Below are positions 6,204 through 23,685 of a DNA stretch of 31,797 nucleotides, piece after piece. Both the position numbers and the translations under genes were made by a program. The notes under the pieces were generated by a model. It saw only the letters and a list, made by a program, of their open reading frames with translations, searched no databases and was not told where the DNA came from. The stretch is from a virus, in the IMG/VR virus record IMGVR_UViG_3300027983_000071, positions 1-31,797 of that record; one strand, 5' to 3'. Position 1 is the stretch's first letter. Each line of letters opens with the position of its first letter.

Positions 6204-7109
6204 TTATACTCTTACAAATCCACCTCTATTTGTGTCAATGTCATTTGTTGTCTTCAATTCAGATAATATTGCGTGTCTTTCAAATATATCTGCAACCCCT
6301 CTATTAATAAATACTACACTATTAACTTCTGGTTTAAAAACTATACCTAAATACTCTTCTTTTTTTATTATTGCGTTTAAACTAGTGTTGTTTATATTCC
6401 AACCACCACTATTACTTTTAAAATTTGTTTTGAAAAAAGATAAATTCTTACCGTATTCATCTACACTTCTTACGTACTCATTTTTATATGTTATAAATTC
6501 GATACCCGAATTTATACTACTTATATTATTTTGTTGGTAATCGGATACTTCTATAGGGTTCGACCCTATACTATAAATAGTTTTATTTATATCTTCACTT
6601 ATAACACCATTAAAAACCTTTTTAGAGTTATCCGATGTATTTAAAAATGGTACATATATAGGGTTACCATTAACATCCAACCTATATGACCTTACTTGAT
6701 TAAGGTAACCATCATCAGTATTACCCGATAATGTATTTTCACCAGTTAAATAAAAATTTAATGGTGCCCCAGCTAATCTCCCATAAGTGAAAGAATTAAA
6801 ATTAGGTGGTGGTGCTGGTAATGTGGTATTTGAAGGGGTAAAAGTTTTATCTGAAAATATACCCATATCATCTACATCTTGAGTTAAAAATAAACTAACA
6901 TCTACCGTATTCTTAATTTTTTGACCTAAACTATCTAAAATATAATTACCATTAGAATCAACTATATAGTTAGGTATTTTACCGTAGAAATATTTCGGGT
7001 TGGTATCGTCAATAACTGTTTTACCTTCAGTGTTGGTAATTAAAACACTTTTAGGTATACTTCTAACAGTGTAACTTTCTAATCCTATTTTTTTTCTAAT
7101 GTATTCCAT
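6204..7109 (-). CDS. Unrecognised structural protein, tail module (301 aa)
   Basis: I chose ATG 7109 as the start (MEYIRKKIGLES). The frame extends upstream to a TTG at 7142, but that start would overlap the previous gene by 19 bases, while ATG 7109 leaves 14 bases after its stop and has an A/T-rich leader. The longer form (312 aa) cannot be excluded. The protein is soluble, Asn/Thr/Ser-rich, with no cysteines, no membrane segment and several short aromatic strands, suggesting a beta-structured virion protein. A proline run (PAPPPNF) breaks the N-terminal third from the rest. No family recognised; the role in the baseplate or tail is inferred from the neighbours. Confidence 0.75.
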   Translation of the reverse strand: MEYIRKKIGLESYTVRSIPKSVLITNTEGKTVIDDTNPKYFYGKIPNYIVDSNGNYILDSLGQKIKNTVDVSLFLTQDVDDMGIFSDKTFTPSNTTLPAPPPNFNSFTYGRLAGAPLNFYLTGENTLSGNTDDGYLNQVRSYRLDVNGNPIYVPFLNTSDNSKKVFNGVISEDINKTIYSIGSNPIEVSDYQQNNISSINSGIEFITYKNEYVRSVDEYGKNLSFFKTNFKSNSGGWNINNTSLNAIIKKEEYLGIVFKPEVNSVVFINRGVADIFERHAILSELKTTNDIDTNRGGFVRV

Positions 7110-7123
7110 ACTATATAAATACT

Positions 7124-8014
7124 CTAAGGTGTAATTTGCCAAAATGTTAATGTAGGTATCCCCCCTAATGGGAAAGGATTTAAATTAACACCTGGAGGTG
7201 GTTGTGATTGTTTAGTGTTAGGGGAAAACTTATATTTATATATCCCATTATCATTCTTTAAAATGACTTTTAAGTATAATATACCATCCACACCTTCTAA
7301 ATTAGTTATTGTTATATTATTTGGGTCAATATCATTAGACGATGCTAATTCATAAACCCTACCATTTAATGAGTTATTGTATTGTACGGTTGCGAACATT
7401 TCATACTCTTTATTTGGTGCGTTGTCCACTAAATCTTGAAACCAATATATCTGAAACCCTTCATGGATTTCACCTGGTTGTAAAACAGGATCACCTAACA
7501 CTAATGATATAGGCGACTCGTTCACACCTAATGGAAATCCATACGCGTTTTCTTGATCAACACCCACTTGAGTGTAAATATCTGAAAAAGATAGTAATTG
7601 ATTTTTACCACTATAAGGACTATCAAATAAAGATAACCTCATAAAACTATTTATAAACCTACTAGACCTACAAAAAACATCATCAAAGGTGAAACCTAAA
7701 TCAGAGTATACCCCCGGTTCTGCACCAACACCTCTATGATCAGGACTCCCTAAAGATATAGACTCGGGAGTATAAAAGTTTAAATTAATTTTAAACTTAT
7801 TTATAATATTCCAATTATTATCGGATGGTTTAAATATAATTTTTTTATAATCTGTTATAGGGTTTATAGATTTTTTTATCTCATCTTTTACAAACTTATC
7901 CATAATCAACTCAGAGTTATCTACAGGGAAAAAATTACTCCCTAAAGATATATCGATAGTTGTCCCACTACCTATATTTCCTATTAATATTTTTCTTTTA
8001 TCAACAAACATCAT
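7124..8014 (-). CDS. Unrecognised structural protein, tail module (about 296 aa)
   Basis: The start is one of two consecutive ATG codons at 8014 and 8011; a TTG at 8017 is also in frame. All overlap the end of the upstream gene, whose TGA is at 8003-8001, so translational coupling is likely. The protein is soluble and rich in Gly, Asn and Pro, with one cysteine. It has an N-terminal segment KILIGNIGSGTTIDISLGSN and a C-terminal proline-rich stretch (QSQPPPGVNLNPFPLGGIP). A WFQDLVDNAPNKEYEMFATVQ-like region suggests a beta-sandwich. It appears to be a virion component of the same baseplate/tail operon; no family was recognised. Confidence 0.78.
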   Translation of the reverse strand: MMFVDKRKILIGNIGSGTTIDISLGSNFFPVDNSELIMDKFVKDEIKKSINPITDYKKIIFKPSDNNWNIINKFKINLNFYTPESISLGSPDHRGVGAEPGVYSDLGFTFDDVFCRSSRFINSFMRLSLFDSPYSGKNQLLSFSDIYTQVGVDQENAYGFPLGVNESPISLVLGDPVLQPGEIHEGFQIYWFQDLVDNAPNKEYEMFATVQYNNSLNGRVYELASSNDIDPNNITITNLEGVDGILYLKVILKNDNGIYKYKFSPNTKQSQPPPGVNLNPFPLGGIPTLTFWQITP

Positions 8015-9989
8015 CAATATCTTTTTGTTTTAATAATGATAAATCTAAACATCCACCAGCAACGTCTCTTTTACCTAATTCATATTCACCAATGAAATCA
8101 CCTAAATTAACATCAATATCTAAAGTGGGTAAACCATTATAGTTAGTTAAATTATTAACACCCCCAGAAATAAATGTCGTTGGATCTTCAAAACTATAAT
8201 TTAAAAATGTGGGGTCCGTTAAATACGTTAAAAATCTTTCTTCATCACCTGATGGTGCCAAAGCACCTAAAGAGATTTCCTCATTAATTATTATAAAATC
8301 ACAAGGTGGGTCTTGTCTCTGTAAATAAAACCTTTTATCTAAGTTAATGTAATGTGCACCACTTTCGAATGGGTAATCTACACCGCCTCCAGTTATATCC
8401 ACTTCACCAATTTCTAATAAGTCTCTCCATTTAAAAACGTTTGTTGCTATTTCCGTTGCGTAATCGGGGATACCAAAAGAAGTTTTAAGTCCATTAATTT
8501 CTAATTGATTAGTAATATTATATTTTTCAATGACATACTGTAAATCCACTATGGGGTTTATATAATTAGAGAATTCTCTAATTTGTATTCGATTAAATGG
8601 TTTATATATATACCCCTCTTTTTTATCTTCCTTGTTACTATCAATACGATTTAAATATTCTCTATATATTGTATTAACTCTATGGTATGTTAATTCTAAC
8701 CTTCTTTCTATTAATTCATTCTCATTATATTCAACGATATCACCATCAAAGATTTCATTCGATTCATCAATATTTTGATACCATTCATTGTTATTATAAA
8801 CAGGGTCACCAAAAGACCTTATATTATAATTAATATTTTCATTATTTTCTATATCATACCCACCAGTAATAGTTGTCCAAAACCTATTTTTTAAGTTTGA
8901 TGGTAAACCACTTTGCTTATCTAACCAATATTGAGAATTAATGGTACTTATATCAGCATCTAAATCATTTTTAATAGTTGTAAAATATAATTCACTCAAA
9001 GGTCTACCTAAGTTGTCTGTTAAGTCTTTAACATCGATATCCTTTTTAAAGTTAAATGACGATATTTTATCATCATAATATGATACACCGAAAGAAGCTG
9101 GGTACATATCATAATCTTTATAATCTGAAGATGTTAAACTTTTAAACTCTCTAACATAGTATTGAGATGATTTATCTTGCACCACTCTCTTTATTGTTGA
9201 CACACCTATTGTAAAATTAATGTAACTTGGATCTAAATCAATAAGAAATGTTCTAAATTTTTTATCATTAGTTTGGTTACCTAATTTAAAAACTCTATAT
9301 GTCTTTTTTAAAAGAACTAATGTTTGGTTTGGGGTGTTATCAGTAAAATTTAATAAACTGATTTCGTCTTGATCAGCTAACCCATGATTTATAGCGGTTT
9401 TAAACCCAACATATAACCTACCATTTAATTTAACAGTGAATTTCTCGATTATAGGTATACCATCCTTTAAGGTTACTCCCGAATTATTTTTAACTAATGT
9501 AATATCTTTACTTCTAAAAGGGTATGTCACCTTAAAAAGATAATTAGGGATACCGTCACTATCTAACATTTTTAACCTATTAAAACTAGGGTCAAAAGGG
9601 ATAAATTCACATAAAGCACTTTTATTATCATTAAATTGTAAAGCGGATTCATCTAACTCATCATTATAATACCCTATCCACCCATTCTTTTCGAAAATAT
9701 CACTAGTAAATATTTTTTTAGACCCAAACGATGACGTGGTACCAGTAATTTTTATATTATCATTATATAGTGGGTTTGAAATTATAGGCGTTACATTACC
9801 ATAAAACCTATATATTGTACTCTCTTTTCTCTCCTTCTGAAATTGTGTGAACTGACTAACATTAGTACTAATATCATTTAATGGTATTGGTTTATTAGTG
9901 CTATCTATACCAAATTGTATCTGACTATCAACATTAACAGAGTTATATGTTCTAGTTTTATTTAGTAATATTTTATTTGTCTTATCCAT
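8001..9989 (-). CDS. Large unrecognised structural protein, tail module (662 aa)
   Basis: A 662-residue soluble protein starting at ATG 9989, 50 bases after the 1537-residue protein gene, with the leader ending ATTATAAATG and no Shine-Dalgarno motif. There is no membrane segment. The sequence is rich in Asn, Asp, Tyr and Ile. Residues about 515-560 contain WRDLLEIGEVDITGGGVDYP followed by an aromatic, basic stretch around FYLQRQDPP, the most structured-looking part. The C-terminus overlaps the start of the next gene by 14 bases. Its place between gp6-type wedge genes and the distal tail proteins suggests a baseplate or fibre-attachment role; this is inference, and no family was recognised. 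Confidence 0.82.
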   Translation of the reverse strand: MDKTNKILLNKTRTYNSVNVDSQIQFGIDSTNKPIPLNDISTNVSQFTQFQKERKESTIYRFYGNVTPIISNPLYNDNIKITGTTSSFGSKKIFTSDIFEKNGWIGYYNDELDESALQFNDNKSALCEFIPFDPSFNRLKMLDSDGIPNYLFKVTYPFRSKDITLVKNNSGVTLKDGIPIIEKFTVKLNGRLYVGFKTAINHGLADQDEISLLNFTDNTPNQTLVLLKKTYRVFKLGNQTNDKKFRTFLIDLDPSYINFTIGVSTIKRVVQDKSSQYYVREFKSLTSSDYKDYDMYPASFGVSYYDDKISSFNFKKDIDVKDLTDNLGRPLSELYFTTIKNDLDADISTINSQYWLDKQSGLPSNLKNRFWTTITGGYDIENNENINYNIRSFGDPVYNNNEWYQNIDESNEIFDGDIVEYNENELIERRLELTYHRVNTIYREYLNRIDSNKEDKKEGYIYKPFNRIQIREFSNYINPIVDLQYVIEKYNITNQLEINGLKTSFGIPDYATEIATNVFKWRDLLEIGEVDITGGGVDYPFESGAHYINLDKRFYLQRQDPPCDFIIINEEISLGALAPSGDEERFLTYLTDPTFLNYSFEDPTTFISGGVNNLTNYNGLPTLDIDVNLGDFIGEYELGKRDVAGGCLDLSLLKQKDIDDVC

Positions 9990-17349: not shown

Positions 17350-17415
17350 TTGTATATAAATATTCTACTATCTATTTTTTGTAAGGAAAGGTTAATAATA
17401 AAAAAAATAAGTTGT

Positions 17416-17604
17416 TTAATGAAAACTACTAATATACTTATCTCTTTGATCAATCATCACATATTCAACAGTGTCGTTCCTACCACAATGGGGGCAATTT
17501 AATTTATCTAACGTTTCAGCTTCGTTAATTTTCCATTCCCCTACACATTTTTTATCACCACACTTATAAATGTACGTGTGCCTTATAAATACTTTATGAC
17601 TCAT
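17416..17604 (-). CDS. Small zinc-ribbon protein (62 aa)
   Basis: A 62-residue protein starting at ATG 17604. It has two cysteine pairs, C15-x4-C20 and C37-x2-C40 (NCPHCGRN), spaced as in zinc ribbons, with aromatic residues around the first pair (HTYIYKC). This most likely makes a single zinc-stabilised beta-hairpin fold. Partner and role are unknown. It lies 15 bases after a small membrane/coiled-coil gene and 66 bases before gp25, in the same direction. Similar mini zinc ribbons in phages often bind nucleic acid or RNA polymerase, but nothing here decides that. Confidence 0.8.
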   Translation of the reverse strand: MSHKVFIRHTYIYKCGDKKCVGEWKINEAETLDKLNCPHCGRNDTVEYVMIDQRDKYISSFH

Positions 17605-17619
17605 ATTAATTTTTTGTTT

Positions 17620-17907
17620 TTATCGGTACTTTAATCTATCATTTTCTTTTTCAAGAAATTCTACTTTAACTTCTAATGCAGATAGTTTGATTTTCACATC
17701 CATTAGTGAATCTGTACACTCATCTTTATCGACTTCAAGTTTTTCTATTCTAGCCTTTAAATCATCTCTATATACAGTGGACTCTTTAAGTGTTTCCTTT
17801 TCCTTTTCACGTTTATTCTTAATGAGAAATTCATAGAACTTCCACCCACCAGCACCAAATAGAACAGTGAGGGTGGTGATTATTATGGGGGTTAGATTTT
17901 CATTCAT
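17620..17907 (-). CDS. Membrane-anchored coiled-coil protein, holin/spanin-like (95 aa)
   Basis: Starts at ATG 17907, overlapping the upstream gene's TGA by 4 bases (ATGA), so translation is probably coupled. One N-terminal hydrophobic helix at about residues 6-28 (LTPIIITTLTVLFGAGGWKF) is followed by about 65 highly charged residues with heptad-like leucines and valines (ARIEKLEVDKDECTDSLMDV, then SALEVKVEFLEKENDRL), a clear coiled coil. This layout is seen in inner-membrane spanins and in some small phage holin-like proteins. It lies in a group of three membrane-protein genes. A lysis role is a plausible inference, not shown, and no endolysin is visible in the window. Confidence 0.82.
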   Translation of the reverse strand: MNENLTPIIITTLTVLFGAGGWKFYEFLIKNKREKEKETLKESTVYRDDLKARIEKLEVDKDECTDSLMDVKIKLSALEVKVEFLEKENDRLKYR

Positions 17908-18332
17908 GGTTTTAGGGACTTATGTAATATTTCAATCTTTAATTTAAATAATATCCATGTCCACATAAATGTGTACCAACAGGTTATTATTAGATTTTTC
18001 GCATCTATAAGTGTAATGGGTTCTTCATCTACAGTTAAATACATACTTACAATATATCTAATAGTAGCAAATAAAGTTAAAATTAAATGATATAAAACAA
18101 ACCTGGATAACCATTTTATCTGATTTAGGGTTATTAACATACCGATACTACCTATAAGGTAAGCGAAATAAATCCAATAAGTGGAGGGTTGACCAACACT
18201 TTCCCAATATGATGGGGTAGTCCATAGTACTTGATTGTTTAGTAAATCACTTACAACCCAAAAGAATAATAGTGGATGGAAGTCAAAGTACAGTAGTATT
18301 TCTTTTATTCTATTGAAGTATTTCTTTACCAT
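17904..18332 (-). CDS. Multi-pass membrane protein (142 aa)
   Basis: A 142-residue protein, mostly hydrophobic, starting at ATG 18332, 4 bases after the stop of the upstream membrane-protein gene. Four likely membrane helices are seen: about residues 18-32 (HPLLFFWVVSDLL), 52-68 (YWIYFAYLIGSIGMLI), 76-98 (RFVLYHLILTLFATIRYIVS) and 110-132 (LIITCWYTFMWTWILFKLKI). The N-terminus is basic (MVKKYFNRIKE), favouring a cytoplasmic end. It overlaps the next gene by 4 bases. Not a recognised family; a holin or another membrane-remodelling role fits the context but is inference. Confidence 0.8.
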   Translation of the reverse strand: MVKKYFNRIKEILLYFDFHPLLFFWVVSDLLNNQVLWTTPSYWESVGQPSTYWIYFAYLIGSIGMLITLNQIKWLSRFVLYHLILTLFATIRYIVSMYLTVDEEPITLIDAKNLIITCWYTFMWTWILFKLKIEILHKSLKP

Positions 18333-18336
18333 AAAA

Positions 18337-18690
18337 TTATTTGTTTAATGGTATAATTCTAATACTATCACCTCTATATAAGGTTTCTGTACTTGATGGT
18401 GGTTTTCGAACTGTGGGAAATTGACTATTAGTTTCTTTAACACTGTTATGTGTTTTTATAATTTTTTGAATTCTGCTGTTTGTTGTTTTATCTTCACCAC
18501 TACCCATCATAGTTATTAATAATATAAACAATCCACCCATGAATAGGTATAATAAAGTTCTACCCTTTTTTAAGTCGGTAAAACACATACTTACTTTGAA
18601 AATTACTATTAATGTGAAATGATATATATAAAACCTTATTTGGGGTTTCTTATAAATGATTTCTTTAATTTTAGAAAATAATTTTATCAT
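18337..18690 (-). CDS. Small two-helix membrane protein (117 aa)
   Basis: Starts at ATG 18690, divergent from the rhomboid gene, with which it shares an 85-base intergenic region. Two hydrophobic stretches are seen: about residues 18-37 (IRFYIYHFTLIVIFKVSM) and 46-63 (LLYLFMGGLFILLITMMG). The rest of the C-terminus is polar and Ser/Thr-rich (KETNSQFPTVRKPPSSTETL) and may be exposed outside the membrane. First gene of a tight three-gene membrane cluster with spacings of 4 bases and a 4-base overlap. Function unknown; possible substrate or partner of the neighbouring rhomboid protease (inference). Confidence 0.75.
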   Translation of the reverse strand: MIKLFSKIKEIIYKKPQIRFYIYHFTLIVIFKVSMCFTDLKKGRTLLYLFMGGLFILLITMMGSGEDKTTNSRIQKIIKTHNSVKETNSQFPTVRKPPSSTETLYRGDSIRIIPLNK

Positions 18691-18725
18691 ATAAATATTG
18701 TTAATAATAAAATGTGATAAAAAGT

Positions 18726-18756
18726 TTGGTAGTTTAAAACATTTGCCGTATATTAG
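18726..18756 (+). promoter_or_regulatory. Bacteroidota-type promoter for the rhomboid gene
   Basis: TTG at 18726-18728, a 20-base spacer, then TATATTAG at 18749-18756. This matches the Bacteroidota consensus TTG-N19-21-TAnnTTTG at all but one defined position. The ATG of the rhomboid gene lies 19 bases after the box, leaving a short A-rich leader (ATAAAATTAAAAATT). It rules out the upstream in-frame ATG at 18698 as the start when this promoter is used. Confidence 0.65.
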
Positions 18757-18775
18757 TGTAATAAAATTAAAAATT

Positions 18776-19510
18776 ATGAAAAAGTTAATCTGTTCATTAC
18801 CAAAGGGTGTTAAATTAGTTATAACAATTAACCTTATAATTTACATAATTACCGTAATAATATTTAACCTAACAGAATATTCATTAAAGGATTTTTTAGG
18901 TACTTACCCAACATATTCAGAACATTTTAATACTGTTCAAGTATTAACATCAATGTTTGTTCATCAAAACTATCCATCACATTTTATTTTCAATATGATA
19001 ACGATTTTAATTTTTGCCCCTTTTGTTGAAAGGATTATTGGGTTTAATAAATTTATTCTAACCTATATTTTTTGTGGTTTGTGTGGTTTCCTTTTAGTTA
19101 ATTTCTCATATTATAAAAATAAGTCTACCATAGAAAAAGAAATAACAAAATTAGGGTTAAAAGTTAGTGATATAAAAATGGATGGTGATAGGGTATCTCA
19201 TGACTATATTTTATCTTTAAATGATAATAAACAAAAAAATGTTATTCGGAATTATGAATACGTTACCTCAAAAACTTATGGTTCTTCAACCGCCGCTTTT
19301 GGGTTTATTATATTGTATCTACTATTAACCCCCCTAACATTTAAAAAGATATTTTATATTGTTTTAGGTGTTTATTTTATATTAGATAATATTAATAGTG
19401 TATTTAATAACCAATCCATATTGAATGGAAGTACCTATACCCATTTAGGTGGGGTAGTAGGTGGGATAATAATATATTGCCATATAAAATTAAAAAAGGT
19501 CATCAATTAA
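18776..19510 (+). CDS. Rhomboid-family intramembrane serine protease (244 aa)
   Basis: The only plus-strand gene. I chose ATG 18776; an in-frame ATG at 18698 lies upstream of a good promoter. Rhomboid motifs appear in order: a first helix at about 13-31, SMFVHQNYPSHFIFN with H69 and N73 of the second helix, VERIIG at 84-89, the serine motif GSSTAAFG at 169-176 with candidate catalytic S171 (usually GxSG), and THLGGVVGG with catalytic H223. A soluble insert of about 55 residues (about 113-168) separates helices 3 and 4. Rhomboids cleave membrane helices within the bilayer. One is unusual on a phage; capture from a host is likely. Substrates could be phage membrane proteins encoded next door or host surface proteins (inference). 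All core residues are present, so it is probably active. Confidence 0.88.
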   Translation: MKKLICSLPKGVKLVITINLIIYIITVIIFNLTEYSLKDFLGTYPTYSEHFNTVQVLTSMFVHQNYPSHFIFNMITILIFAPFVERIIGFNKFILTYIFCGLCGFLLVNFSYYKNKSTIEKEITKLGLKVSDIKMDGDRVSHDYILSLNDNKQKNVIRNYEYVTSKTYGSSTAAFGFIILYLLLTPLTFKKIFYIVLGVYFILDNINSVFNNQSILNGSTYTHLGGVVGGIIIYCHIKLKKVIN

Positions 19511-19525
19511 TTGATGACCTTTTTT
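19492..19525. terminator. Perfect 34-bp palindrome, bidirectional terminator
   Basis: AAAAAAGGTCATCAATT is followed immediately by its exact reverse complement. The hairpin has a GC-containing core and a run of six T on either strand, so it can stop transcription both of the rhomboid gene and of the convergent gene at 19554-19970. The last rhomboid codons and its TAA (19508-19510) lie inside the left arm and centre. Confidence 0.9.
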
Positions 19526-19553
19526 ATATTCTATTTAAATACCCTTTATTTTT

Positions 19554-19970
19554 CTATATACATTGTTTAGACATCTTCACTGATATTTTTCTAACTTCAT
19601 CATTAAATTCCTCATCAGTGAGTCCTGTACCTAATTTCCTAAGTGGGTTTGTAATGTATCCTGCTTGATCTTTGTCGTATTCTGTTGTTTTTAATTTGGA
19701 GATAATCCATACACTAATATCATCGTCACCACTTTCTTTATTGACTAAAGTTAATAATCCATTATACTCATCACATGTTTTAATCTTTTTCAAAGTATCT
19801 AATATCTTTGATTTATTCCACCAATTAGTAATACCAGCATTCGCAATTAAATATTTAACTTCTTTAAATATTTTATCACCGTTTGTTTGTTCTGTTAATA
19901 CCCTCTTAACAATTCTTTTTAAATCTGATTCCGTCAGATTAACCACTTTACCATTTTTCTTAATTTTCAT
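19554..19970 (-). CDS. Small protein with conserved-looking LTESDLKRIVKRVL N-terminus (138 aa)
   Basis: A 138-residue soluble protein starting at ATG 19970. The N-terminus (NLTESDLKRIVKRVLTEQ) forms a basic amphipathic helix. From memory, a similar LTESDLxRIVKRV prefix is attached to diverse proteins of marine phages; this could not be checked here. It ends in LTE-Q, which resembles the (L/I)-x-E sites cut by T4-type prohead proteases, so it may be a capsid-targeting leader (inference). The remainder (ITNWWNKSKILDTLKKIKTC and onward) is alpha-helical with a short acidic loop (NKESGDDDIS) and looks like a small enzyme or packaged effector domain, not recognised. It converges on the rhomboid gene across the palindromic terminator. 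Confidence 0.75.
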   Translation of the reverse strand: MKIKKNGKVVNLTESDLKRIVKRVLTEQTNGDKIFKEVKYLIANAGITNWWNKSKILDTLKKIKTCDEYNGLLTLVNKESGDDDISVWIISKLKTTEYDKDQAGYITNPLRKLGTGLTDEEFNDEVRKISVKMSKQCI

Positions 19971-20023
19971 TTTAATGTTTTTTATAGTAATTTTATTAAT
20001 ACCTTTTATTATAAATATATTAA

Positions 20024-20080
20024 AACACCAAAAAGGATTAAAAAACCATTACTTTATTATTGTACTACCTCTTTGGTGTT
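20024..20080 (-). terminator. Possible hairpin terminator after the DUF5522-like gene
   Basis: On the minus strand AACACCAAAGAGG (20080-20068) can pair with CCTTTTTGGTGTT (20036-20024), 13 pairs including one G-U. The 31-base loop carries the gene's stop codon. The descending arm runs into TTTAATATATTT. The long loop makes this weaker than a classical terminator. Confidence 0.4.
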
Positions 20081-20225
20081 TTGGTGTGTATGGACAATAT
20101 AAACAACCATTACCACAACAACTACCTCTTACTATATGTTCTTCTTTAGTAATCGGTTTATTATTGTGGTTTATGATTTCTTTTACATATAACTCATATA
20201 TCCAGTCATCTGTTATGGTCTTCAT
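20049..20225 (-). CDS. DUF5522-like small cysteine protein (58 aa)
   Basis: A 58-codon gene from ATG 20225 to TAA 20051-20049, only 3 bases after the stop of the reductase C-terminal gene. It carries RGSCCGNGCLYCPY at about residues 33-46, close to the RGYCCxxGCRHCPY signature of DUF5522, a family of short Bacteroidota proteins. Four cysteines in a CC-x3-C-x2-C arrangement suggest binding of zinc or an iron-sulfur cluster. The N-terminal half is a helix (DDWIYELYVKEIINHNN). Because it is tightly linked to a cysteine-dependent reductase it may help with redox or metal supply, but that is inference. The Shine-Dalgarno motif is absent; the leader is TTAATTAAAAA. Confidence 0.75.
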   Translation of the reverse strand: MKTITDDWIYELYVKEIINHNNKPITKEEHIVRGSCCGNGCLYCPYTPKHQRGSTIIK

Positions 20226-20228
20226 TTT

Positions 20229-20906
20229 TTAATTAATTTCACAAGAACCCCCTGAACACGCTAATTCACCACTTAATGTTGTGTTATCATCTGATTCCAC
20301 AATTTGGGATAAGTCAATGTTATTTAAATGTTTCACCATTTCGTTATACACTTCTTCCGTAATATCTTCAAAAGGTGCTTGAGTATATGTCCCACCATTA
20401 TATGGTAATACAGATAAACCATTATAATGTTCTTTGTTAGTCCACATCCATTCACCAGATAAATCCCAATCTTCATCTTTTAAAGATATAGTTGCTGAAA
20501 CGTTATGTGTATTGGAACCATTTCTATGTCCACTCTTTACCCATTCCGTTGCTACCTTCTTAACTCTTTCCAAAAGGTCGAAAGGTGATTCAGTTCTTAA
20601 TATAGAACCTTTTGGTGATTTTTGTGGGATAGTGATAATTGCTGTATCATGAGCCCTAAAGTAATCATCCTCTAACAACTCAGGGTGATGAACAATTAAA
20701 TGTTTATATATTGATTCATTTTTCCCCACTCTAATTCTTCTTATGTAGTAGTCATTGTGCCACGCATGTATCCCTGAAGATGTACCTAATGTTAAAGATG
20801 TAGTATTATGTGACACAGTACCATTACCCATCTGATACACAGGGTTATTTTCAACTTCAATGTCTACAGTAAACGATTGTGTTAATTCTTTTTTCTTTAT
20901 TTTCAT
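20229..20906 (-). CDS. nrdJ: Class II ribonucleotide reductase, C-terminal fragment fused to a C-intein (225 aa)
   Basis: Residues 1-34 are the C-terminal half of a split intein: basic start MKIKKKEL, block F FTVDIEVENNPVYQM and block G NGTVSHN, then Thr+1. Residues 35-225 continue the reductase exactly where the upstream gene stops: TTSLTLGTSSGIHAWHNDYY and IRRIRVGKNESI are typical of the adenosylcobalamin-dependent RTPR family. The C-terminus carries C217-x4-C222 (ACSGGSCEIN), the swinging redox pair of this family with the same spacing as C731/C736 of the Lactobacillus leichmannii enzyme. The gene lies 43 bases after its partner and in another frame, so a working enzyme requires protein trans-splicing. 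The 191 extein residues cannot form an active site alone. Confidence 0.93.
   Translation of the reverse strand: MKIKKKELTQSFTVDIEVENNPVYQMGNGTVSHNTTSLTLGTSSGIHAWHNDYYIRRIRVGKNESIYKHLIVHHPELLEDDYFRAHDTAIITIPQKSPKGSILRTESPFDLLERVKKVATEWVKSGHRNGSNTHNVSATISLKDEDWDLSGEWMWTNKEHYNGLSVLPYNGGTYTQAPFEDITEEVYNEMVKHLNNIDLSQIVESDDNTTLSGELACSGGSCEIN
20805..20906 (-). other. C-intein half (34 aa) of the split intein
   Basis: Covers residues 1-34 of the C-terminal reductase gene. It ends in the canonical His-Asn pair and is followed by Thr as the +1 nucleophile. The first ten residues contain five lysines, complementary to the acidic end of the N-half. The 34-residue length is typical of natural C-inteins. 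Confidence 0.9.
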
Positions 20907-20949
20907 TTTATTATGTTTTTTAATTTACTTTTTATTTGTTTACCATTCA

Positions 20950-23685
20950 CTATACCATCTGATTTAATAAAATATTTTCTTCACAATATAACCATTCATC
21001 ATCTTCCGTTATATCAATAGCTTGTTTCCAATTACCATCAGACATCATAAATTTATGATGCGGTGTACATTCAATGATACTATCATCTTCCATTGTGAAT
21101 TTCACACTTTCCTCAAACCCATTCACGAATAACTTAGTTATTAAATTCTCATTACCATTTTCATCAAAAACTTTTATATCGGTTTTAACATCGTACCATT
21201 CCCTATACACATCTAAATGATTATCTAAATTAACACCATTTATCTTAAAAATATCAAATAAACTAATATTTCCATTATTAGTCCTAATAACCGTAGATGG
21301 TATCTGACAACCCGCAGGTTTTACAGTTGTACACCTAGCCGATTTATTAATATCTATAAGTTTAGCGACTCTACTATTTTCTCTCTTTACCACATCTGCT
21401 GATTTTTCTAAATCATAACCTAATACAACTCCACTTCCGATTCCCGTCATAGATACACCGATTAGAGCGTCTTTCTCTGTTGTTTCTTGCCAGATCTCTC
21501 TTAAGTAATGAAACCCTGTGTAACCAGCTTGTAACGTCCCTATGAAGGCTGCAGCTTTAACTCTTTCATTCAAATCTTCTTGTGATTCAATATTCGAAAC
21601 ATTAACTTCACATAGGTTACAGAATTGAAATGGTCTTAGTGCGATTTCACAACAATTTCCAGTAACTACTTTTGATAGTTGGAAACAATGTGTTTCATCT
21701 TGCACTGAAATATCCCAAACATCCTCATAAATATCTGTTTCTTCTACAGATATAACTTCAACCTGATTATTATCCTGTGTATTATTAAATTTGTAGTTAT
21801 CTAGTTCATCTTGTTTGTATTGTACTGACAATTTAAAAATATTTATAAATTGTTTTATTGATTGATTCTCGTTAATTCTTAAATCATATCTGTCAAATAT
21901 CTTATCATTTAACGTTGACGTACTGTGTCTAATGGTTGTTTTAATACCGTAGAACCCTAATAATTCAGACACATCACTAAGTAACGACCTGTGCTTGGAG
22001 GTTAATATTACCCTTTTTTTACTTTTTGATATATGACCATCTGATGAGAATAAACCATCAATAATACCCTTTCTATATTCTTCAGAACCATTCACCCACA
22101 CAGCCTTAGGTAACCCAACATTTTTATCGACAATACCAAATTGTTTTATATAATTGTCGACTTGTATGTTATTTATTGACACTTCTTTGGTTTTTGTTTC
22201 AATTAGAACTTGTGTCATAGTCTCTTCAAAGTCTTCAAAGGTTGGTTTTAACCTACGTCTAAAAGAACCATTAAAAGATGGTACATTTTCTTGGATTGTA
22301 CTTATTAGTAGTTCTGATATATTGGATTCATCATCCTTATCACTTACAATCATACCGTACTCCGAATGTTCCTTTCTATTAGATACCCAACCATCACCTA
22401 TAATCCAACCAGATAAAAACCCATCATTATACGTACCTAAATCACCGTCAAACATTTTTGTTTCTCTCAGGAATGGTAATTTACTACCAACTTTAATAGA
22501 TGGTGTATTAACTTTAGTATACTGTACTCCGTCCCACACAGGCCATTCATGTTCTTTTGTCGAAAAGTATTCAGTCTTATCTTTCAATGTTAACTTATAT
22601 AATTTTTGGTTTTTTCCAGATAACCAACATTTAGCGTTACTAATTTCACCATTTAAGTTTTTAACTTCAAATTCTTTACCATCAAGTTCTTCAATCGGGT
22701 ATACTCCGTTTGTGGTGATAACCTTAGTACCTTTTCTCAATGATGGATTCGTACCCCAGGACTTATCATTAGATAAATAAATTCCTGGTTCACCCGCTCC
22801 TGACAATTCAATTCTCTTCCATAACCCCATAAAAAATTCTTTAGTGATTTTATGTCTAATAAGAACTGCTGAATTATTAGCTCTACCTCTTTGTGGGTTA
22901 TTTTCCCACCAGTCACCAGATTTACAAGAAATCATTTCATCGTCATCAGCACTAAATAATGATATTAAGGCTGCTCTACGAATACCACCAGCTAATACTG
23001 CGTCTGCAATATAACATATAATATCATGAGTTTCTAATGTTGTTAATTTTTCACCATCAGTTTTATTTTCTAATACACCAGTAATTTTAATGATACACTC
23101 TTTCAATGGTTGTGGTCCTGGCGCTTTACCACCAGAAGTAACTAACCTAGCACCTTTTGCTCTAATGTCGGAAAAATCAAATTCAATTTTAGAACTTCTT
23201 TTTTCTCCGATGTAAGACTTCATAAGTACTTTTATTGAGTCTGACCAACCTTCGATTGAGTCTCCGATTAAAAACCTTCTCTTTCTTTTATTGTGTGGTT
23301 TGTTTACCGGTAGTAATTTATCTACATTATGTTTTTGTACTGAATATCCTACACCTGTACCACCAAGTAGTAAAAACATTGTCTCTGAGAACGCATCTAC
23401 ATCATCAATAGGTAAGAACGCACAGTTATACACTCTGTTCGGAGAGATATCAATGGGTTTACCCGCAAATTGCATTGACCTCATCGATGGTAACACTTTT
23501 TTATCATATACAAACTGATACTTTTCTTCTATCTCGTCTTTTAATTCAGGATACTTCCTAATGTGCATATTCATATTCCTTGTAACCAATTCATCCCAAG
23601 TTTCTCTCCTATTTAATTCTGGAATATACTTTGCGTATTTCATATAAACCGTTATATCTGATAATATTTTGTTTGAAATATCCAT
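20950..23685 (-). CDS. nrdJ: Class II ribonucleotide reductase, N-terminal part with one full intein and an N-intein (911 aa)
   Basis: Makes deoxyribonucleotides with adenosylcobalamin as radical source. Residues 1-314 are the first extein: RRETWDELVTRNMNMHIRKY, VLPSMRSMQFAG, YNCAFLPIDD with active-site C88, and LLLGGTGVGYSVQ, all typical of monomeric RTPR enzymes. Residues 315-677 are a complete intein. Residues 678-792 are the second extein, with NP-CCE joining N313-P314 to catalytic C678, and C689 eleven residues later (the spacing of C408/C419 in L. leichmannii). It ends TTVKPAG. Residues 793-911 are an N-intein followed by TAG. After splicing and joining to the 225-aa partner the enzyme would have about 620 residues (314+115+191). 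It starts at ATG 23685 after a 107-base leader with A-rich sequence and no Shine-Dalgarno motif. Confidence 0.94.
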   Translation of the reverse strand: MDISNKILSDITVYMKYAKYIPELNRRETWDELVTRNMNMHIRKYPELKDEIEEKYQFVYDKKVLPSMRSMQFAGKPIDISPNRVYNCAFLPIDDVDAFSETMFLLLGGTGVGYSVQKHNVDKLLPVNKPHNKRKRRFLIGDSIEGWSDSIKVLMKSYIGEKRSSKIEFDFSDIRAKGARLVTSGGKAPGPQPLKECIIKITGVLENKTDGEKLTTLETHDIICYIADAVLAGGIRRAALISLFSADDDEMISCKSGDWWENNPQRGRANNSAVLIRHKITKEFFMGLWKRIELSGAGEPGIYLSNDKSWGTNPSLRKGTKVITTNGVYPIEELDGKEFEVKNLNGEISNAKCWLSGKNQKLYKLTLKDKTEYFSTKEHEWPVWDGVQYTKVNTPSIKVGSKLPFLRETKMFDGDLGTYNDGFLSGWIIGDGWVSNRKEHSEYGMIVSDKDDESNISELLISTIQENVPSFNGSFRRRLKPTFEDFEETMTQVLIETKTKEVSINNIQVDNYIKQFGIVDKNVGLPKAVWVNGSEEYRKGIIDGLFSSDGHISKSKKRVILTSKHRSLLSDVSELLGFYGIKTTIRHSTSTLNDKIFDRYDLRINENQSIKQFINIFKLSVQYKQDELDNYKFNNTQDNNQVEVISVEETDIYEDVWDISVQDETHCFQLSKVVTGNCCEIALRPFQFCNLCEVNVSNIESQEDLNERVKAAAFIGTLQAGYTGFHYLREIWQETTEKDALIGVSMTGIGSGVVLGYDLEKSADVVKRENSRVAKLIDINKSARCTTVKPAGCQIPSTVIRTNNGNISLFDIFKINGVNLDNHLDVYREWYDVKTDIKVFDENGNENLITKLFVNGFEESVKFTMEDDSIIECTPHHKFMMSDGNWKQAIDITEDDEWLYCEENILLNQMV
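20953..21309 (-). other. N-intein half (119 aa) of the split intein
   Basis: Starts at Cys793 of the reductase, after KPAG. Block A is CQIPSTVIRTNNGNISLFDI; block B is DDSIIECTPHHKFMM with the T-x-x-H residues at 874 and 877. It ends ITEDDEWLYCEENILLNQMV, strongly acidic. The split falls between blocks B and F, where a homing endonuclease sits in full-length inteins. No endonuclease remains. Confidence 0.9.
21655..22743 (-). other. Contiguous intein with LAGLIDADG-type endonuclease (363 aa)
   Basis: Residues 315-677 of the reductase. It begins with Ser (SLRKGTKVITTNGVYPIEEL, block A) instead of the usual Cys. Block B is TEYFSTKEHEWPVW with T376 and H379. Two endonuclease motifs are seen: FLSGWIIGDGWVS at about 423-435 and GIIDGLFSSDGHIS at about 540-553, both with the acidic residue kept, so cleavage activity is plausible. 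Block F is EDVWDISVQDETHCFQL and block G SKVVTGN, where the penultimate His is replaced by Gly. The +1 residue is the reductase thiyl-radical Cys678. Confidence 0.9.

Follow-up and report, generated by a model that had tools for sequence, protein, structure and literature searches.

A phage-borne rhomboid protease gene facing a gene with a capsid-targeting-like tag appears to represent a separate clade of phage rhomboids

Rhomboid proteases are rare in phages, as the initial annotation of the DNA studied here had remarked, without being unprecedented: they occur in the Stenotrophomonas phages DLP3 and DLP5, in huge phages and in phage entries of BFVD. According to the accessible parts of the genome reports, DLP3 and DLP5 encode a 'rhomboid membrane protein', which is counted among the morons in DLP5 (PMC5834331, PMC7326821). 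A different known system, that of the internal proteins of phage T4, is equally relevant to the locus described below. Its prohead protease gp21 cleaves after L/I-x-E, and ten residues are enough for the packaging of IPIII, as stated in a published account (PMC9026906). Our searches of the open-access literature retrieved no work on what phage rhomboids do or on the pairing of a rhomboid with a tag gene, and queries on annexin and phage capsid, on GlpG G202 and on the rhomboid substrates of Bacteroidetes had the same outcome.

The window, by which we mean the whole stretch of DNA analysed, is a complete IMG/VR record of 31,797 bases that is itself likely a fragment of a phage genome. Its rhomboid resembles those of DLP3 and DLP5 in being phage-borne (and, in the accessible description of DLP5, moron-listed), and differs in that the DLP3 protein has 175 aa and belongs to another phage and host, a comparison made by description rather than by alignment; the accessible descriptions of DLP3 and DLP5 make no mention of a tagged partner gene. 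The rhomboids of the huge phages LR745206 and LR756502 and the viral entries of BFVD are likewise phage-borne, and the catalytic dyad is kept in the two huge-phage proteins; these have, however, a loop of 21 residues between TM3 and TM4 instead of the 70 of the window protein, and they lie elsewhere in the tree. With GlpG and the rhomboids of Bacteroidota (PF01694) the window protein shares the six-helix fold, the Ser-His dyad, the His and Asn of TM2 and the GxS and HxxGG motifs, and with those of Bacteroidota also the long TM3-TM4 loop, whereas it departs from bacterial rhomboids by falling in a separate, phage-only clade, in one subclade of which, its own, the glycine following the catalytic serine is replaced.

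The features of the locus are collected in table 1. The initial annotation had assigned the rhomboid gene to the correct strand and given its correct end, 19510, but had set its start at 18726, about 50 bp too early and out of frame; the ATG at 18776 is supported by homologues. In the register then used, H69, N73, S171 (within GSSTAAFG) and H223 (within THLGG) are all confirmed. The gene is indeed the only plausible one on the plus strand, every remaining ORF of that strand being opposed by larger genes on the minus strand; an ORF of 186 aa at 19672-20232 opposes both the minus-strand gene of 138 aa and an ORF of 58 aa at 20049-20225.

Table 1. Features of the rhomboid locus in the window (positions are those of the window)
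Feature	Position	Strand	Remarks
Variable slot holding the rhomboid/partner pair	17350..20228		Between gp25-like gene and RNR C-terminal ORF
Candidate promoter TTTG-20-TATATTAG	18725..18756	+	Weak; not convincingly over background
Rhomboid intramembrane serine protease gene	18776..19510	+	244 aa; H69, N73 (TM2), G169-x-S171 (TM4), H223 (TM6)
Two-way intrinsic terminator, 16-pair stem	19491..19526		Covers end of rhomboid gene; common to convergent pair
Convergent partner gene, 138 aa	19554..19970	-	N-terminal tag, then small predicted helical domain
Tag LTESDLKRIVKRVLTE, partner residues 12-27	19890..19937	-	Ends L-x-E (LTE); putatively capsid-targeting-like

The Pfam profile Rhomboid (PF01694), whose cut-off is 22.6 bits, matches the window protein at 50.4 bits (E 3.4e-13); the protein falls far below the NCBIfam equivalog cut-offs for GlpG (16.2 vs 250 bits) and rhombosortase (17.8 vs 84). 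Its AlphaFold2 model, predicted from 74 sequences (the window protein plus those of 73 of 88 usable loci), has a pLDDT of 93.6 and a pTM of 0.88. Among solved structures it is closest to GlpG (Z 19.7, rmsd 2.9 over 167 residues), followed by iRhom (Z 15.9) and an ERAD component (Z 13.4), and Foldseek gave a probability of 1.00, yet E-values of only 5e-3 and weaker. The modelled protein thus has the six-helix, GlpG-like rhomboid fold. The TM3-TM4 loop, which is ordered in the model, spans 62-70 residues in the phage clade, with a median of 67 in 83 bacterial rhomboids and a range of 19-22 in seven other viral ones; in its length along the sequence, the loop of the window protein is Bacteroidota-like.

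The residues H69, N73, G169, S171, H223, G225 and G226 are identical in all 95 aligned rhomboids and are kept in each of the ten members of the phage clade, so that the plausible Ser-His dyad of the initial annotation (S171/H223) is sustained, and the kept catalytic serine and histidine set the clade apart from inactive pseudorhomboids. The position following the serine is less constant: it is Gly in 92 of the 95 sequences, for which reason we treated the glycine of GxSG as usual and not as family-defining, and it is replaced by Thr172 in the window, by Ala in L260 and L318 and by Ser in L261. Loss of this glycine could mean a weaker or altered activity. The open frame is full-length in all ten clade members, and dN/dS is 0.23-0.29 in four clade pairs (dS 1.1-1.5 in three of these), which argues against decay of the gene; two further pairs are uninformative, one being near-identical, with a dN/dS of 0.79 on very few changes, and the other showing no changes. 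From its sequence and predicted structure, the window rhomboid is likely an active protease.

A scan of viral contigs with the window protein as single query recovered no relatives, because the exact 8-residue patterns used were too narrow; three alignment-based scans of IMG/VR then found its clade. The closest relatives are L260 and L261 (49% and 46%), followed by L348, on the same contig as L318 (42%), by L166-L168 and L352 (35%) and by L349-L351 (27-28%), of which L351 lies on a contig of 296 kb. The best cellular match has about 27%, GenBank phages gave only two weak matches, both in huge phages, and plasmids gave only distant bacterial rhomboids. A rapidly computed maximum-likelihood tree of 95 sequences groups the five phage members known at that stage in one clade (SH-aLRT 98) apart from 83 bacterial and seven other viral rhomboids; as the root is arbitrary, the branch of the clade long and its amino-acid composition unusual, the tree does not place the original source of the gene. 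Neither the tree nor the residue counts include frameshifted L174 or the duplicates L168, L170 and L172, and L318, L324, L271 and L350-L352, found after the tree was built, are also outside the tree. Since the nearest kin are phages and form a single clade, the rhomboid has long been present in phages, with no recent uptake from a sampled host, contrary to the host acquisition previously proposed.

One phage contig (L352) has two rhomboid copies, at 6400-6987 and 7956-8726, each opposite a tag gene; the smaller copy keeps a GxS and a histidine and has a short TM3-TM4 loop. A second phage lineage carries a ClpB-like AAA+ ATPase and an M20-like peptidase near the rhomboid (L260:3229-6180 and L166:3522-6387), the ATPase having 57-58% identity to that of huge phages with another type of rhomboid. 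No homologue of the window-type UvsX was found in nine records, which are fragments, with rhomboids of this clade or of other types.

Phage genes flank the rhomboid on both sides, so the region is not stray host DNA, an eventuality that the initial annotation had raised. One flank encodes a UvsX-like recombinase, an exonuclease, a DnaB-like helicase and the ribonucleotide reductase (RNR); the opposite flank encodes baseplate proteins of gp25-like and gp6-like type. Among 50,697 phage records, the UvsX-like protein matches only the four of Flavobacterium phage immuto, with about 40% identity, and it has 83-100% identity to proteins of 80 uncultured contigs. These matches point to a host among the Bacteroidota, probably of flavobacterial kind; the host is probably also marine.

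Two side features of this backbone deserve mention. The RNR (20229-23685, minus) is split over two ORFs, the first with a LAGLIDADG-type intein at about residues 340-673; by eye, the end of this first ORF reads like the N-part of an intein and the start of the second like a C-part (..VSHN/T), an arrangement suggestive of a second intein, this one naturally split. The 58-aa minus-strand ORF that follows the RNR contains the motif CCGNGC; in L097, an ORF of similar appearance belongs to DUF5522 (61.8 bits vs 25), and such ORFs are present at the same place in many relatives.

The interval between the RNR and gp25-like genes ranges from 106 to 3005 bp in relatives of the window. Tblastn detected the window rhomboid in none of 159 related loci, and a Pfam Rhomboid match is found in none of 50 whole records of backbone relatives (drawn from about 160 loci). 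As to placement, then, the reading of the gene as a moron stands, with a variable slot that lacks rhomboid in 50/50 backbone relatives, while an acquisition from a host is not supported as a recent event. A secreted protein bearing an HExxHxxG motif and encoded on the opposite strand occupies the slot in 8 of the 15 intervals shown. Examples of about 200 aa are L097:4411-4995, L020:16196-16789, L053:10785-11396 and L111:7241-7822; among the four proteins tested, DUF2927 exceeds its cut-off in two (L097 and L053), Peptidase_M10 matches are weak, and none passes the cut-off of a named metzincin family. In close backbone relatives (L027:6607-7500, also L026 and L084) the slot of the window pair contains a tag gene and a convergent protein of 157 aa, secreted-looking and matching no known family.

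With respect to expression, the terminator that the initial annotation had given to the rhomboid gene is present, but it works on both strands and is shared with the partner gene, and similar hairpins are found in the convergent gap of L260, L261, L166 and L167. The host-type promoter also claimed is not borne out: sigma-70-like sites between 17300 and 20300 number 17, against 22.0 in shuffled sequences, and the Bacteroidota-like candidate TTTG-20-TATATTAG is near background, its score of 9/10 being equalled in 70 of 2000 random 100-bp stretches. The same pattern reaches only 7-8 in five of six upstream regions of relatives, and 9 in L260. In L260 and L166, the rhomboid is preceded, roughly 60-140 bp ahead of position 7992, by DNA that resembles the 3' portion of a tRNA gene with a terminator after it.

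The interpretation that we tentatively prefer, giving it as a whole slightly less than an even chance, is that the window phage is large and contractile-tailed and that its rhomboid would be an accessory, catalytically competent protease of the inner membrane, cutting membrane proteins of the host or of a rival phage to the advantage of the phage. The rhomboid would have a transcript of its own, running counter to the phage operons around it, and during infection the protein would insert into the inner membrane. Its S171-H223 dyad could there cut at least one membrane-anchored protein belonging to the host or to the entry route of a competing phage, and the altered envelope may then favour the phage, either by blocking superinfection or by disarming a membrane-bound defence. 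It is the accessory status by itself that points to superinfection exclusion or counter-defence; PADLOC gave no match for the window rhomboid, a result that says little on counter-defence. As a rhomboid is already present in 14/14 well-known control genomes, it is more likely that the phage copy brings a different target or timing than that it supplies an activity which the host lacks.

A narrower and rather unlikely possibility is that the rhomboid and its tagged neighbour constitute one unit, in which the neighbour would be packed via its tag and injected while the rhomboid acts in the membrane on the same envelope process or, in a variant to which the same doubt applies, protects against or processes the action of the packaged protein. 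It is favoured by the arrangement of the two genes. The rhomboid had been said to stand alone on the opposite strand; it is the sole plausible plus-strand gene, but its conserved convergent neighbour had been overlooked. In the rhomboid-query scan, the 3' end of the rhomboid lies opposite a tag gene, at a gap of 17-43 bp, in all ten clade loci as well as in the window, the second rhomboid of L352 included, even if most of these loci belong to one phage lineage and are not independent. The pair is found on two phage backbones, that of the window and the one with the ClpB-like ATPase and M20-like peptidase. Moreover, several clade partners have a domain in common, to which the window partner belongs: stripped of its tag, it matches the profile of this domain by hhalign with a probability of 91.8 (E 7.5e-7, 34% over 67 columns), and single-sequence BLAST with the same domain gave no match. 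Against the unit, the partner domain occurs without rhomboid in L327 and L328 and no similarity could be detected between that of L318 and the rest, so that the tag and its position are better conserved than the domain.

The model of the partner is helical and of low confidence (pLDDT 73). Its Foldseek list consists mostly of annexins, none significant (best E 0.41), Pfam gave no annexin-type match, and GxGT-38-D/E, which we take to be the annexin calcium-site pattern, is absent from 8/8 partners, a looser form being present in only one of the eight. An annexin assignment was accordingly rejected, leaving a faint likeness of the predicted fold to a single annexin repeat. A reading by eye of the secreted proteins of L300 and L327 as CAP domains was also without Pfam support.

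The tag is comparable to the capsid targeting sequences of T4 internal proteins, since it is short, N-terminal and ends in (L/I)xE, and since a gp21-type protease is encoded in the other rhomboid-bearing phage records searched; it differs in its sequence. Just past the tag core, [LIV]xE is present in 114 of 121 distinct tag ORFs from 256 viral loci, at one offset in 104 of them, against a mean of 15 in shuffles; similarity to the window tag, through which the majority of the ORFs were collected, favours this ending, and among those collected otherwise it is found in 7/9. A gene for a gp21-like prohead protease (Peptidase_S77) is present in 4/4 plus 6/6 rhomboid-bearing records, that is 8/8 distinct ones, the window record lying outside this count, and in 2/11 backbone relatives of the window, most of which are fragments. 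The regular expression used gave no tag genes in Flavobacterium phage immuto, so not every phage with this backbone has the tag. That the partner is packed in the phage head through its tag is a reasonable inference from these sequence features and from the analogy with T4.

Tag genes are also paired with unrelated envelope-type genes, which weakens the notion of a dedicated unit because the pairing may then reflect only shared accessory islands. A convergent gene lies within 150 bp of 28 of 111 tag genes and of 199 of 1530 other genes, and a close convergent gene of envelope-like type follows 21/111 and 36/1530, respectively; the latter excess persists once the eight rhomboid rows are removed (13/103 vs 36/1530). 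These figures depend on crude ORF calling, which loses the window's own tag gene, on a hydropathy threshold for 'envelope-like' that we set ourselves and on loci that are partly related. They suggest that, in such phages, genes directed at the envelope tend to be placed facing tag genes, whether the two form functional pairs or belong to accessory islands. A wider and still less probable extension would be that large Bacteroidota phages carry interchangeable convergent two-gene cassettes, each combining a tag-packed, injected protein with a facing envelope protein (a rhomboid or another secreted or membrane protein), which would jointly take over or protect the envelope of the host; the rhomboid and its partner might then represent the membrane-protease version of these cassettes, which we consider equally unlikely.

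The initial annotation had also proposed that the rhomboid regulates lysis or matures phage membrane proteins; with lysis proteins encoded next to it as possible substrates, this we regard as improbable. Upstream of the rhomboid, on the minus strand, lie four small genes (17416-18690; 62, 95, 142 and 117 aa) that are unique to the record among 159 related loci. Those at 17620-18690, just upstream, include the 117- and 142-aa proteins, which have hydrophobic segments by hydropathy, and the 95-aa protein is weakly similar to hol-like (E 0.003) and Rz-like (E 0.015) families, as would suit substrates for maturation. However, a comparison with 50,697 phage records gave no match for the 142- and 95-aa proteins, transcription of the rhomboid leads away from the small membrane genes, and these do not stand beside the rhomboid in the other clade loci; since they do not travel with it, a role in lysis or maturation is not supported. 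Least probable of all is an inactive or passenger gene, either a decayed copy or a pseudo-rhomboid binding membrane proteins without cutting them, as might be imagined from the lost post-serine glycine of the window's subclade and from the very AT-rich gene (GC 25% vs 30% for the window), given the full open frames, the dyad and TM2 residues of all clade members and the low dN/dS values reported above.

As far as the literature searched shows, a separate clade of phage rhomboids with a constant tagged partner appears to be new, and a rhomboid facing a capsid-tag-like gene hints at a hitherto unexplored means by which such phages may influence the envelope of their hosts. Intramembrane proteases sit where the phage meets the cell, at entry, at membrane-anchored defences and at lysis. 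A phage-only clade with kept catalytic residues provides concrete candidates for a function that, in the accessible parts of phage genome papers, is given in name only, and the conserved facing gene offers a testable partner for the rhomboid. If the tag is a capsid-targeting signal, it would furthermore provide a sequence-based list of the proteins that a large group of uncultured phages of Bacteroidota may pack and inject.
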